From Spiroplasma floricola 23-6 (GTDB taxonomy: Bacteria > Bacillota_I > Bacilli_A > Mycoplasmatales > Mycoplasmataceae): a stretch of 64,000 nucleotides of DNA. The notes under the pieces are model-generated. The model saw only the letters and a list, made by a program, of their open reading frames with translations, did not search any database and was not told the origin of the DNA. Location of the stretch: positions 310,001 through 374,000 of the forward strand of contig NZ_CP025057.1 in NCBI RefSeq assembly GCF_002813555.1, in the 5' to 3' direction. The position numbers and the translations under genes are program-made. Position 1 is the stretch's first letter; the number at the start of each line of letters is the position of its first letter. This document shows positions 5,020 to 54,779 of the stretch, piece after piece.

Positions 5020-5493
5020 ATGACAGATAAAGATATTATTTTAACTGCAGAAGGTCTACAGGAATTAAAAGATGAATTAGCACATTTAATTAATAATGTT
5101 CGTCCACAAGTTATTGAAGAATTGGTGGAAGCGCGTGCTCAAGGAGATTTATCAGAAAATGCAGATTATGATGCAGCAAGAAATAGACAAGCAGAAGTAG
5201 AAGCAAGAATTAAAGAAGTAGAAGCTATGCTTTCTAAAGCAAAACTTATTGAAGACACTAACTCAAAAAATAAAGAAGTTAAAATTGGAAGTCAAGTAAT
5301 TTTTGCAAATCAAAAAACTAAAAATGAAATGAAAGTAAAAATTGTTGGAGCTATTGAAGCAGATCCATTTGAAAATAAAATTTCAAACGAGTCACCATTA
5401 GCAAAAGCTATGATGGGTAAAGTTGTTGGAGATTCAGTTGAAGTTAGAGAACTTAAAGAACCTTACAAAATAACAATTAAAGAAATTAAATAA
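5020..5493 (+). CDS. greA: Transcription elongation factor GreA
   Basis: 157-residue factor that enters the RNA polymerase secondary channel and stimulates cleavage of backtracked transcripts. The N-terminal coiled coil carries the conserved tip DLSENADY with Asp43 and Glu46, the acidic pair that coordinates the catalytic metal. The C-terminal half (about 80-157) is the FKBP-like domain with IGSQVIF and ESPLAKAMMGK. Start follows AAGGGG. It stands alone with its own promoter-like element and terminator. Confidence 0.97.
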   Translation: MTDKDIILTAEGLQELKDELAHLINNVRPQVIEELVEARAQGDLSENADYDAARNRQAEVEARIKEVEAMLSKAKLIEDTNSKNKEVKIGSQVIFANQKTKNEMKVKIVGAIEADPFENKISNESPLAKAMMGKVVGDSVEVRELKEPYKITIKEIK

Positions 5494-5539: not shown

Positions 5540-6418
5540 ATGATAAAAGTTCAAAGTACATTTAAAAATAACTTACCAACAATTTATCTAGTTGGAACTC
5601 CAATTGGTAATTTAGATGATATTTCAAAAAGAGTTATAGATACTTTTCAAAAAGCAGATGTTATTTATTGTGAAGATACTAGAGTAAGTTTTAAATTATT
5701 TGAAAAACTAAAAATAAATAAAAAACTTAAATCCCTACATAAATTCAATGAACATTCAATTAGTGAGAGTTTTATTGAAGATATTAATAAATACAAAAAT
5801 ATAATTATTATAAGTGATGCTGGTATTCCTTGTATAAGTGATCCAGGAGCAATAGTTGTAAGTAAAGTTTTGCAAAGTGATATTCAAGTCAATATTACTT
5901 CAGTTAATTGTGGACCTGCATATATTCACGCAATTGCTTCAAGTGGTTTTATTTCTAGAAAAAACTTATTTTTAGGATTTTTAGATAAAAAAAACATTGA
6001 AAAAGAGTTTGACGAAATTCTTAACAAACATAAAAATAATGAAGTTATTATAAGTTTTTATGAATCTGTTCACAGAATTCAATCAACTATAAATCAATTA
6101 TCTTTAATGTTAAATAAAAATACAAAAGTAGTAATTGCAAGAGAATTAACTAAAATAAATGAAGAGTTTCTAAGAGGTTCAATATCTGAAATTTGTGATT
6201 ATATAAATGATAATCAATTAACTCTTAAAGGAGAATTTTGTATAGTTATTGATTCAAACTATGATTTAAATCAGGAATCAAAAATTGATATGGAAAAAAT
6301 ACTAATAGAAGTAGAGAATTTAATAAAAGAAAATGTAAGTAAAAAAGATGCAATAAAAACTATTTCAAAAAAATATAATATTAAAAAAAATGAATTAACT
6401 AAATTTTTTTATAAATAA
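5540..6418 (+). CDS. rsmI: 16S rRNA (cytidine1402-2'-O)-methyltransferase RsmI
   Basis: 292-residue SAM-dependent tetrapyrrole-methylase-fold enzyme that 2'-O-methylates C1402 in the ribosomal P-site region. Family signatures are visible in order: YLVGTPIGNLDDIS near the N-terminus, YCEDTR, ISDAGIPCISDPG (the Gly-rich SAM loop), and FYESVHRI. ATG follows AAGGAG. It is transcribed in the same direction as greA but after greA's terminator. Family length matches. Confidence 0.95.
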   Translation: MIKVQSTFKNNLPTIYLVGTPIGNLDDISKRVIDTFQKADVIYCEDTRVSFKLFEKLKINKKLKSLHKFNEHSISESFIEDINKYKNIIIISDAGIPCISDPGAIVVSKVLQSDIQVNITSVNCGPAYIHAIASSGFISRKNLFLGFLDKKNIEKEFDEILNKHKNNEVIISFYESVHRIQSTINQLSLMLNKNTKVVIARELTKINEEFLRGSISEICDYINDNQLTLKGEFCIVIDSNYDLNQESKIDMEKILIEVENLIKENVSKKDAIKTISKKYNIKKNELTKFFYK

Positions 6419-6466
6419 TAAAATTTTTAGATATTTATAACGATATAAATATCAGGAGGTTTTTAT

Positions 6467-6754
6467 ATGGAAAAATTAACTATAGAACAGTCAAAAAAAG
6501 TAGTAGGAGGAAAAGCAGTAAGTGGTGCTTTTTTAAGTGGTATAGGTTCAATCATGAAAGGTGCTTCAGAATTATTTACAAACTTTATTGGAGCAATTTC
6601 AACAACTGTATTTGGAGCTTTAACTATAAATAGAAATGATAAAGTTGAATTAAAAATAGGTAATTCTACTTTTAAAGTTGACAATACTGTTTCAAATAAA
6701 GCAAATGCGGAAAATAAAGTTTCACAAATGCCAAATGTTGTTAGTTTATTTTAA
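6467..6754 (+). CDS. Small secreted peptide with double-glycine leader (bacteriocin-like)
   Basis: 95-residue ORF with a strong AGGAGGT site 8 bases before ATG. The N-terminus MEKLTIEQSKKVVGG fits the double-glycine leader of class II bacteriocins and peptide pheromones: Gly14-Gly15, Val at -4, Leu at -12 and Thr at -11, though -7/-8 are Ser/Gln rather than Leu/Glu. After GG comes a Gly/Ala/Ser-rich hydrophobic stretch (residues 16-52) with GxxxG-like spacing, then a polar tail. Leaders of this kind are normally cleaved by a C39-peptidase ABC exporter; none is in the window. It is monocistronic with its own palindromic terminator. Function is inferred from the leader only. Confidence 0.6.
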   Translation: MEKLTIEQSKKVVGGKAVSGAFLSGIGSIMKGASELFTNFIGAISTTVFGALTINRNDKVELKIGNSTFKVDNTVSNKANAENKVSQMPNVVSLF

Positions 6755-6774
6755 GGTTCTTAAGAACCTTTTTT
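6753..6774 (+). terminator. Palindromic terminator after the double-glycine peptide
   Basis: Perfect 18-base palindrome AAGGTTCTTAAGAACCTT followed by TTTT; it begins inside the stop codon. Confidence 0.75.
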
Positions 6775-6890
6775 AAAATAAATAAAAACTGTAAATCAAT
6801 AGTTTTTCCTTTATAAAATAATTTTTATTGCTTTTTTTGTATTATTTAATTTTTATTATATAATTTAATAATATAAGGGGAAAAATAATT

Positions 6891-51400: not shown

Positions 51401-51952
51401 ATGTTTGAATTATTCAAAATAGGCTTAATAAGTAAAAAGGCTCTTTTAATATTAAATTACTCTAAAATTAAGATTAATGAAAACCAATTAGCTATTCTAT
51501 TAATTATTATGGAGTTGTCAAACGATGATCAAAAAAACTTTACACCATCACAAATTGCACAGCACATGATGATATCTAAAGAAGAAATAGAAAAAGAAAT
51601 ATCAGAATTATTAAAGAATAGAATTATTAAACTTGAACAAAAAGGTAAAAAAACTATTCTTGATCTGACCCCATTATTTAATAGACTACTTGTGGAAGTG
51701 GAAGAAAAACACTCTAAACTAAGAAATGACAATACGTATAATTTTATTGAAAAAATTTTTAACTATGAACTTAATAAACAAGAAATAGAAAAAATAGAAA
51801 ATTTCATTGAATTAGGTATTTCTAAACCAAAAATTATGTCAATAATTGATGAATATAAAATTAATAATATAAATGATTTATTCAAGAAATTAGAAGAACA
51901 AGCTAAAAAAACATCAGTAAAAATTACTATGTATAATTGATTAAATGATTAA
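51401..51952 (+). CDS. DnaD-like replication protein
   Basis: 183 residues. N-terminal winged helix (NENQLAILLIIMELSNDDQKNF, TPSQIAQHMMISKEEIEKEI) and a C-terminal helical region (YNFIEKIFNYELNKQEIEKI, IENFIELGISKPKIMSIIDE) resembling DnaD/DnaB primosome domains. DnaD helps load helicase at oriC and restart sites. The ribosome site is weak; ATG 51401 is one of two options (TTG 51392). TGA Trp four codons before TAA. Its end overlaps recU, which converges, by 26 bases. Confidence 0.72.
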
Positions 51953-52412
51953 AAATTTGATTAAAATCAAATTTAATACCTGAAAAACTTATTTCAAAGA
52001 AATTATCTTTGAAATAGTTATAGGGTATTTTTTTATTCTCCATTTTTTTTATTTCATTTATATGTAAAAAAAATAATTTTTCATATAAATGAAAATAAAC
52101 TATGATAAAACCACTACCATTGTTTTTATTAACTAAATTCAATTTTTCTATTTGATGTTTTTTAATATTGTTCAAATTAAAAAAATCTTTTTCTGTTTCT
52201 TTTGCTTCAAATTCAATGTAAATTCCTTTTCAAAGCCCTATATAATCACAAAAATAGTTTTTGTTTAATCGTGCTGTTACTATATTGTTTTCAACAGAGA
52301 TAATATTGTTATTTATAGGCATTTTATATATAAAACCTTTGGTTGGATCTAATGAATTAATACTGTTGTTTATAATCATTTCTAAGTACATTCCTTTATT
52401 TTTAATAATCAC
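51927..52412 (-). CDS. recU: Holliday junction resolvase RecU
   Basis: 161 residues. NKGMYLEMIINNSI resembles the RecU start NRGxxLE; YIGLWKGIYIEFEAKET carries the nuclease motif G.YIDFEAKET; HQIEKLNLVNKNNGSGFIIVYF follows. It cleaves Holliday junctions during recombination. GTG start at 52412 fits GGGTG as ribosome site (upstream TTG 52439 is less likely). Length is a little short of the Bacillus protein (about 200). Convergent 26-base overlap with the DnaD-like gene. Confidence 0.88.
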
Positions 52413-52496
52413 TTTTATCACCCAATTTATTAATCGCAATATATTTACAAAAAATTACAAAATAAGATACAATAAGACTAAATAGGGGGCTAAAAA

Positions 52497-52837: not shown

Positions 52838-52847
52838 ATAAAGATTG

Positions 52848-53214
52848 AGATTAAATCTGAATCAACTGCTATATTTGAAAAATAATATAGAGGAAACTCC
52901 ACGCTTGCACATTCTGAGATGAATGTAGTGATTGTGCTAGAGGAAAAAATAACTCTAGGTACCAATTTTATTTGGTAACGACTTAAGTATAGTCTAAGGG
53001 TATTTATACCTATGATAAGCTTTTTAAAGTGCCACAGAGACGATTAACTAGAAATAGTGAAATGGAACGGGTAAACTCCACAAGCAAGAAACTCAAATTT
53101 TGGTAGAGGAGCTTAAAGGTGAGGAATTCAACAAACCTTTAGGATTGCAGATGCAATAGATAGATAGTTGATGCACGAAAGTGTTACAAAACGTGGGTTA
53201 TGATGATTTAATTT
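52848..53214 (+). ncRNA. rnpB: RNase P RNA (bacterial type B)
   Basis: Catalytic RNA that matures tRNA 5' ends. Universal blocks are present: GAGGAAACTCCACGCTTGCA near 52890, GCCACAGAGACGA near 53031 and GAAATGGAACGGGTAAACTCC near 53055. The terminal helix P1 pairs AGATTAAATC (52848-52857) with GATTTAATTT (53205-53214). The position after gpsB is conserved in Firmicutes. Ends are set from P1 and may be off by a few bases. Confidence 0.95.
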
Positions 53215-53239
53215 CACTATATTTTTTAAGGATTTGTAT

Positions 53240-53695
53240 ATGGAAAAATTATTTGAATATTTAAAATTGAATAATTTAACAATATCTAGTTGTGAGTCAT
53301 TTACTGGTGGATATTTTGCAAATGAAATAACAAATTTATCAGGAGCTAGCAATTATTTTAAAGGAGGATTTGTTTGTTATACTGATGAATTTAAATCACA
53401 AATTTTGCAAATTGATATAGAAGTAATTAAAAAATATGGTGCAGTTTCTTTAGAAACTTTAAATTTAATGTTATCTAAAACACAAGAATTATTGAAAACA
53501 GATATAGTTTTTGCTTTTACAGGTTTTTCTACTCCAATTGATGATAATAATGTTTTATCAGGATTGAGTTATGTTGGTTTTAAAATGAAAGAAAAAATAT
53601 ATACATATGAATTTAAAGTTTTAGAAGATATTTCAAGAAAAGAATATAAAAAAAGAGCTTGTAATTTTGTTATAAATAAATTACTAGAATTGTAA
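53240..53695 (+). CDS. cinA: CinA C-terminal domain protein (nicotinamide-nucleotide amidase type)
   Basis: 151 residues, only the C-terminal CinA domain: SSCESFTGGYFANEITNLSGASNYFKGGFVCYT, YGAVSLETL, FTGFSTPID. Family enzymes deamidate NMN to NaMN; full-length CinA also has an N-terminal COG1058 domain, absent here. ATG 53240 follows AAGGA; the upstream TTG gives a worse start. Sits directly before recA, the cinA-recA linkage of Firmicutes. Confidence 0.9.
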   Translation: MEKLFEYLKLNNLTISSCESFTGGYFANEITNLSGASNYFKGGFVCYTDEFKSQILQIDIEVIKKYGAVSLETLNLMLSKTQELLKTDIVFAFTGFSTPIDDNNVLSGLSYVGFKMKEKIYTYEFKVLEDISRKEYKKRACNFVINKLLEL

Positions 53696-53708: not shown

Positions 53709-53728
53709 ATTTGTCGATTATGACAAAT
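53709..53728 (+). promoter_or_regulatory. Inverted repeat just upstream of recA ribosome site
   Basis: ATTTGTC-GATTAT-GACAAAT, perfect 7-base arms, ending immediately before GAGGAGG. Could be a protein operator or an RNA hairpin limiting recA translation. Confidence 0.5.
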
Positions 53729-53741
53729 GAGGAGGAAAATT

Positions 53742-54779
53742 ATGATAGAAAAAACATTAGAAGAAAATAAAAATGAGGTGCTTTTAAATATGAATAATAA
53801 CATTTATGATGATCCAGCTTTTAAAAGCGTCTTAAAAGATATTGAAAAAACTTTTGGAAAAGGTTCAATTATGAAACTTGGAGACTCTGTAAATTCAACA
53901 ATTGATGTAATTCCAAGTGGAAGTTTTTTATTAGATAGAGCAATTGGAGTTGGAGGTTATCCAAAAGGTAGAATTATAGAAATATATGGTCCAGAATCAA
54001 GTGGTAAAACCACACTATCTTTGCATGCCATTTGTGAGGCACAAAAAAATAATGGAAGAGCTGCATTTATAGATGCAGAACATGCTTTAGATCCAAGATA
54101 TGCCCAAAATATTGGTGTAGATATAAAAAATCTTGTTGTAGCCCAACCAGATTCAGGTGAACAAGCTTTAGATATTTTAGAAATGTTGGTTAAATCAAAT
54201 ACAATAGATATTGTAGTTATTGACTCAGTTGCAGCTCTTGTTCCAAAAGCAGAATTGGATGGAGAAATGTCAGATCAACAAATTGGTTTACAAGCAAGAT
54301 TAATGTCTAAAGCTTTAAGAAAATTAAATGGAATTGTTTCAAAAACAAATACAACTGTTATATTTATTAATCAATTAAGAGAAAAAGTTGGAGTAATTTT
54401 TGGAAATCCAGAAACAACTCCTGGAGGTAGAGCTTTAAGATTTTATTCCTCATTAAGACTTGAAGTTAGAAAAGGTGAAACCATTTCTGTAAATGGAGAA
54501 GCAACTGCAAATAAAGTAAAAATTAAAATAGTTAAAAATAAAGTTTCTCCACCTTTTAAAACTTGTCAAATAACAATTGCTTATAATAAAGGTGTAGAAA
54601 AAGATATTGAAGTTATTGAAATGGCAACAATTTATAATGTTTTAACAAAAGCAGGAGTTTGATATTCTTATGGTGAAGAAAAAATAGGGCAGGGAAAAGA
54701 AGCTGTAAGAGAATGATTTACTAATAATCCTGATAAATATGAGGAAATTCAAAATAAATTAAAAGATTGTATAGAATAA
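53742..54779 (+). CDS. recA: Recombinase RecA
   Basis: 345 residues. Walker [10 protein letters not shown] at 83-91; [40 protein letters not shown]; loop [21 protein letters not shown]. The C-terminal acidic tail is short. ATG 53742 follows GGAGG; the N-terminus is about 20 residues longer than usual before the first canonical helix ([22 protein letters not shown]). Two TGA Trp near the C-terminus. Intact, unlike recA of some other Spiroplasma species, where truncation has been reported. Confidence 0.97.

Follow-up and report, generated by a model that had tools for sequence, protein, structure and literature searches.

A conserved double-glycine peptide of Spiroplasma and related mollicutes, its candidate C39 exporter and a putative competence-type regulon

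The stretch analysed here (the window) comprises 64 kb of the Spiroplasma floricola 23-6 genome, positions 310,001 to 374,000 of contig NZ_CP025057.1, and contains on its forward strand an open reading frame (ORF) of 95 amino acids (6467–6754), which appears to encode the precursor of a secreted peptide with a double-glycine (GG) leader. The peptide, conserved well beyond the genus, is the candidate substrate of the only C39-type ATP-binding cassette (ABC) exporter of the genome, and a common upstream box groups both genes with those for DNA uptake and recombination. The explanation we favour on balance, with reasonable but far from complete confidence, is that of a secreted peptide of a SigX/SigH-like competence regulon, a peptide that would act on the membranes of neighbouring cells.

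The translation consists of the leader MEKLTIEQSKKVVGG (6467–6511, + strand; 15 residues) and continues with KAVSGAFLSGIGSIMKG onward, the start of the presumed mature peptide (6512–6751, + strand; 80 amino acids). As an earlier preliminary description had stated, the leader carries Leu at −12, Thr at −11, Val at −4 and Gly at −2 and −1. The same reading frame is found in a genome that reads TGA as Trp and whose genes neighbouring the ORF need genetic code 4, which identifies a mollicute. By protein search, every one of the 20 genomes of the genus has an orthologue, with a frameshift separating leader from mature part in the G005 copy; in the family as a whole, a profile built from 23 orthologues detected the peptide in 51 of 60 genomes. 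The leader was read in 44 genomes, with starts other than ATG assigned by alignment, and keeps its length and its key positions across them: 43 leaders have 15 residues, and the ending is GG in 35, AG in 8 and GV in 1. The GG, on whose conservation in homologues the preliminary description had staked its reading, is retained to the extent that Gly −1 is present in 43 of 44 leaders, while L −12 is kept in 40 of 43 and I, V or L at −4 in 38 of 43. By sequence comparison, this conservation of the leader is greater than chance. Pairwise dN/dS ratios are mostly about 0.1–0.4, indicating purifying selection; for the two most similar pairs the helical part gives values near 1, on few changes.

The mature part has a net positive charge and a Gly-spaced helix. 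In a single-sequence AlphaFold model of low confidence (predicted local distance difference test, pLDDT, 62), a Gly-rich helix spans about residues 20–50 and a beta hairpin about residues 59–71, and the alignment of orthologues has a conserved C-terminal segment, DKxExKIGNSTFKxDN. None of the family models and PDB entries found in our searches covers the peptide. A match to the SLATT domain (E 0.0013–0.0023, below the cut-off) was rejected as owing to the hydrophobic stretch, and one to PDB 8qad (sc-apCC-6-LLIA) because this is apparently a designed coiled coil. Our literature search found no paper on a Spiroplasma GG peptide.

As C39 peptidases process GG leaders, the preliminary description had proposed a C39-processed secreted peptide and suggested searching the complete genome for such a transporter. 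The genome scan found exactly one C39 domain over the cut-off. It belongs to an ABC exporter of 679 amino acids (genome positions 915487–917526) with peptidase, membrane and ATPase domains, in which the catalytic motifs (QxxxxDC, His and Asp) and the ABC motifs are intact. The exporter gene lies about 600 kb from the peptide gene, behind rimP, and a gene for a 125-aa membrane protein overlaps its end. Among the 60 family genomes, 49 have both peptide and C39 domain, 2 the peptide only, 1 the C39 domain only and 8 neither (Fisher 1.5e-7, a value not corrected for descent, with fewer independent losses than the counts suggest). G050, one of the two genomes with peptide and no C39 domain, is the only genome read that lacks Gly −1. 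With a single exporter, a kept leader and joint presence and absence, the comparison upholds the earlier proposal, and the peptide is very probably a C39 substrate. A genome-wide pattern for other GG leaders (GAGG-ATG-(V/I)GG), which is a narrow one, gave the window ORF as its sole peptide match, in line with the suggestion that small ORFs with the same leader be sought, and further substrates may exist beyond its reach. Inspection by eye assigned the remaining matches to FtsZ, to an FAD-type start and to a lipoprotein, with one match left unassigned.

The two genes, remote from each other, have a common upstream element. A CGAT box at 6441–6444 (+ strand), a putative −10-like element, lies about 10 nt ahead of the ribosome-binding site of the peptide gene, and a CGAT box is also found ahead of the exporter gene across the genus. 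A de novo motif search, in which the sampler was trained on 38 regions (19 peptide and 19 exporter) that excluded the window genome, found a CGA-type box, in rare cases CGAC or CGAA instead of CGAT, in 37 of the 38 upstream regions. The box is asymmetric and stands at a fixed, promoter-like distance from the ribosome-binding site. As the box is common to both, the distant exporter would be tied to the peptide by regulation and not by position. In other clades peptide and exporter again have a box in common, with a different sequence: CGAA in g20, CTAAT in g3 and g22, TTATTCTTTA in g4 and AGGAA in g19. These boxes outside g1 were read by eye without a computed background, and a few pairs were unreadable; the same reading gave no clear box common to peptide and exporter in G021, g5 and g2.

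Further genes of the window genome carry the box. There it precedes the genes of the peptide and the exporter, recU, ruvA(B), the gene of a short single-stranded DNA-binding protein (SSB), and genes for proteins of 177 (a membrane protein), 251 and 108 amino acids; one further site has the look of a chance match. Within the window it was found only at the peptide gene, recA and recU. The recU gene (51927–52412, − strand; Pfam RecU, 9.6e-36) has its CGAT box at 52436–52433, and recA (53742–54779, + strand), which lies behind cinA (about 53240–53695), has one at 53715 with slightly longer spacing. Among 104 genes of sampled regions of the same genome, partly picked for holding boxes, the sole further match was an off-spacing chance one. 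The box recurs on the same genes in relatives: on recU in 9 genomes, ruvA in 5, SSB in 5, recA in 4 (the window included) and the 177-aa gene in 4. The 177-aa membrane-protein gene stands directly ahead of comEC, with holA further on, and gave no helix-hairpin-helix match; we refer to it as the comEA-position gene, as this is presumably where comEA sits in Bacillus. The SSB is matched best by two NCBI SSB models that are short (131 and 112 positions), and competence SsbB proteins are of similar length. By the sequence evidence of these boxes, the peptide quite probably belongs to a competence and recombination regulon.

To such a regulon a regulator may be assigned by analogy. The genomes of the genus encode a divergent sigma-70-type protein of about 200 amino acids, near the origin in nearly all of them; outside the genus, the family-wide search for it gave weak results. 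In the window genome its gene lies between rlmB and rpmG-secE, an interval that we take to be the sigH neighbourhood of Bacillus. We infer that this sigma factor reads the box. Frameshift, deletion or stops disrupt the sigma gene in G005, G010 and G014 (L355, L354 and L353); as the break in G010 lies at a T tract, it could reflect phase variation or an error of sequencing. G005, the genome with the frameshifted peptide gene, has both a broken sigma gene and no ComEC match. In genus g19, the 8 genomes that have the peptide are exactly those with an apparently intact comEC; in the other 6, which lack the peptide, comEC is missing or interrupted (Fisher 3.3e-4, uncorrected). Furthermore, transcripts of ruvA, ruvB, recU and comEC rise together in cultured S. 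poulsonii, for which natural competence has been suggested (PMC5874924).

The leader, the exporter, their co-occurrence, the common boxes and most gene identities in the regulon are established by comparison of sequences; cleavage, secretion, sigma control, competence and membrane activity are the parts we infer in the following model. Peptide and exporter would be expressed, although unlinked, from matching promoters of a competence and recombination regulon that includes the comEA-position gene with comEC, the ssbB-like gene, recA, recU and ruvAB, and that is probably read by the alternative sigma factor of the sigH locus. The C39 domain of the single exporter would recognise the 15-residue leader and cut after Gly-Gly, and the exporter would send out the 80-aa remainder. 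The cationic, Gly-rich helical peptide could then act on the membranes of neighbouring wall-less cells in the fratricin or bacteriocin manner of CibAB, so that DNA would be released when the cell is ready for uptake; on cells without a wall, a peptide active on membranes could dispense with wall hydrolases. For the role outside the cell, membrane activity is the leading candidate, held at somewhat less than even confidence, with DNA capture or a surface function, and likewise a signal, each rather unlikely.

Several observations weigh against this model. Action in the manner of CibAB accounts neither for the long conserved C-terminal segment nor for the lack of an immunity gene; no such gene was found in the window neighbourhood of the peptide. 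Bacteriocins usually vary fast and patchily, whereas the present gene is widespread, mostly occurs as a single copy and evolves under purifying selection. The pattern of box, ribosome site and start is not very specific alone: genus-wide it gave 158 matches against 84 for the reversed control, so single box matches are not reliable, and in the window genome it gave 9 against 8. The link of the sigma factor to the box is by analogy only. The literature searched contained no DNA-uptake experiment for these species. Finally, the Mesoplasma-like clade g5 has the peptide in 6 of 7 genomes and a C39 match in 7 of 7 (one broken), with no ComEC or sigma relative detected, and g21, g22 and g4 likewise have the peptide without detected ComEC, which speaks against a strict link with uptake. 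As g5 keeps the pair without either, the peptide may have a function unrelated to competence.

Three other accounts of the exported peptide fare about equally, each with a rather low probability. The peptide could be a competence pheromone, a signal that triggers the regulon as the competence-stimulating peptide (CSP) does in streptococci. An exporter and a GG peptide coregulated with competence-type genes recall the tie of comC and comAB to competence, and a core gene under purifying selection would suit a signal; however, a mature part of about 80 amino acids is long for a pheromone, and the peptide has its box in common with late-type genes of uptake and recombination. No receptor turned up, and none was searched for; two-component receptors are not generally known from mollicutes.

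It is similarly doubtful that the peptide is an ordinary bacteriocin directed at other species with no link to uptake, the box then marking a stress or late-growth programme. The curated bacteriocin families gave no match above the cut-off; weak matches below it come from class IIb models that hit a few members (lactococcin G-beta/enterocin 1071B, 0.028; cerein 7B, 0.043), and the second GG-leader ORF of g19 recalls two-peptide bacteriocins. The Mesoplasma-like genomes, which keep peptide and exporter without detectable ComEC, would also fit. A single-copy core gene at a conserved locus without an immunity gene does not, nor does the absence of the peptide in g19 exactly where ComEC is missing or broken. 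This joint absence would equally suit a component of the cell surface that stays there and binds DNA or host surfaces, an explanation to which we give a comparably small share. The mature part is cationic, and its long conserved hydrophilic C-terminal segment would be unusual for a pore former, but no fold or family match supports it.

A little less probable still is that the box marks an SOS-type regulon of DNA damage instead of competence. While recA, recU, ruvAB and SSB are genes of DNA damage and recombination, the set also includes the comEA-position gene with comEC, the ssbB-like gene, the GG peptide and the exporter, and the asymmetry of the box and its fixed promoter-like spacing also speak against such a regulon. 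That the product is a small cytosolic protein with an accidental GG is very improbable: secretion is a prediction from sequence, but the leader kept in 44 genomes, the co-occurring exporter and the common promoter boxes all argue for export.

The remaining features of the locus concern expression and neighbourhood. The ribosome-binding site that had been noted is AGGAGG at 6454–6459 (+ strand), 7 nt ahead of the ATG. The proposed terminator is borne out: the end of the ORF folds into a terminator-like hairpin with a T run (6753–6776, + strand; −11.8 kcal/mol, z −3.5). The hairpin is missing from the output of the strict terminator scan, for which the T-rich base of its stem probably accounts. 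A perfect 10-bp inverted repeat, GATATTTATA-ACGA-TATAAATATC (6430–6439 and 6444–6453, + strand), overlaps the CGAT box and is only partly kept upstream of the ORF in relatives. The usual locus in the relatives read is rsmI–peptide–rplU. In the window, rsmI (5540–6418, + strand), the conserved upstream neighbour, is preceded by greA (5020–5493, + strand), which also precedes the peptide in several g19 genomes. The gene for a chitinase-type lipoprotein stands between peptide and rplU; as the locus contains no chitinase in the relatives read, we rejected the association that had been drawn, and this neighbour appears incidental. That neither an exporter nor an immunity gene is adjacent to the ORF was correctly noted. 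A role against competing gut bacteria is still conceivable, but the regulation points elsewhere. Among further searches, weak extra matches in relatives were a phosphotransferase system (PTS) permease, a lipoprotein and other unrelated genes; a scan of genome contigs with P0001 as query gave no matches, and in that with RsmI the matches were swamped by other bacteria.

A number of side observations concern the same genes and boxes. In g19 (L091, L092, L095, L099 and L101) a second ORF with a GG leader, e.g. MKLLTIKQQKEVIGGAAWIIGALV..., often comes directly after the peptide gene, and in G050 (L098), where the leader ends in Gly-Val and C39 gave no match, the second peptide is apparently without a start. 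The 108-aa gene with a CGAT box (L346; genome C1, about 965582, − strand) heads a division cluster of the mraZ-rsmH-ftsA type, and several relatives have similar ORFs with the box; one possible role is that of a brake on division while the cell is competent. A CGAT box also precedes a 250-aa protein in four genomes (L213, L242, L248 and L253), the copy in the window genome having no family match, SocA/Panacea-like proteins in five (L231, L233, L266, L275 and L281; the family was checked for L266), and a 210-aa protein with a Cys-rich N-terminus (L249 and L254). In the window, the non-coding interval 52840–53230 between a DivIVA/GpsB-like ORF and cinA looks like, and is possibly, RNase P RNA.

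For spiroplasmas and related mollicutes, it is an even question in our judgement whether a sigma-driven regulon of natural competence exists with its own exported GG peptide, killing of, or signalling to, neighbours then being coupled with DNA uptake and the peptide family being the missing substrate of the lineage's orphan C39 exporters. In JCVI-syn3A, gene 0401 encodes an orphan C39-ABC transporter without an apparent GG substrate, for which another function has been proposed (PMC6609329). The type of transporter is alike (neither orthology nor this substrate is claimed for gene 0401), but a conserved candidate substrate exists here and is coregulated, which makes the orphan-exporter question testable in the Spiroplasma lineage. 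Furthermore, the common boxes predict a competence regulon in bacteria whose competence is so far no more than a suspicion (PMC5874924), and they single out a small set of genes, several of them without assigned function. If the prediction is true, natural transformation could become a tool for the laboratory genetics of spiroplasmas.

Among known systems, CibAB of Streptococcus pneumoniae, which lyses non-competent neighbours, resembles the present one in its GG leader, its C39-ABC export, its status as a core gene and its expression with the competence regulon (PMC7595303), and also in its two-gene arrangement, seen here in g19. It differs in that no sequence similarity was found, the mature part here is longer and has a conserved segment towards its C-terminus, a CibC-like immunity gene was not found, the producer has no cell wall, and the activity of the present peptide is putative. 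The streptococcal SigX regulon (comEA, comEC, ssbB, cinA and recA) overlaps with the CGAT-box genes, and SigX boxes are known to precede genes for bacteriocins in S. pneumoniae as well as S. gordonii (PMC5069739). The overlap covers the comEA-position gene, comEC, the ssbB-like gene, recA behind cinA and the link to a GG peptide, whereas the box sequence is another, recU and ruvAB are included and the sigma factor is very divergent. ComC/CSP with ComAB is likewise a GG peptide and C39 exporter tied to competence, but here the exporter is unlinked, the mature peptide is long and there is no known receptor. Closer in lineage, the MG428 regulon of Mycoplasma genitalium, likewise a mollicute, combines genes of recombination with an alternative sigma factor, as proposed here; it is not known to include a GG peptide. 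In summary, streptococci are known to have systems of this kind; what appears to be new is the lineage, the family to which the peptide belongs, the box and the lack of linkage between peptide and exporter genes.
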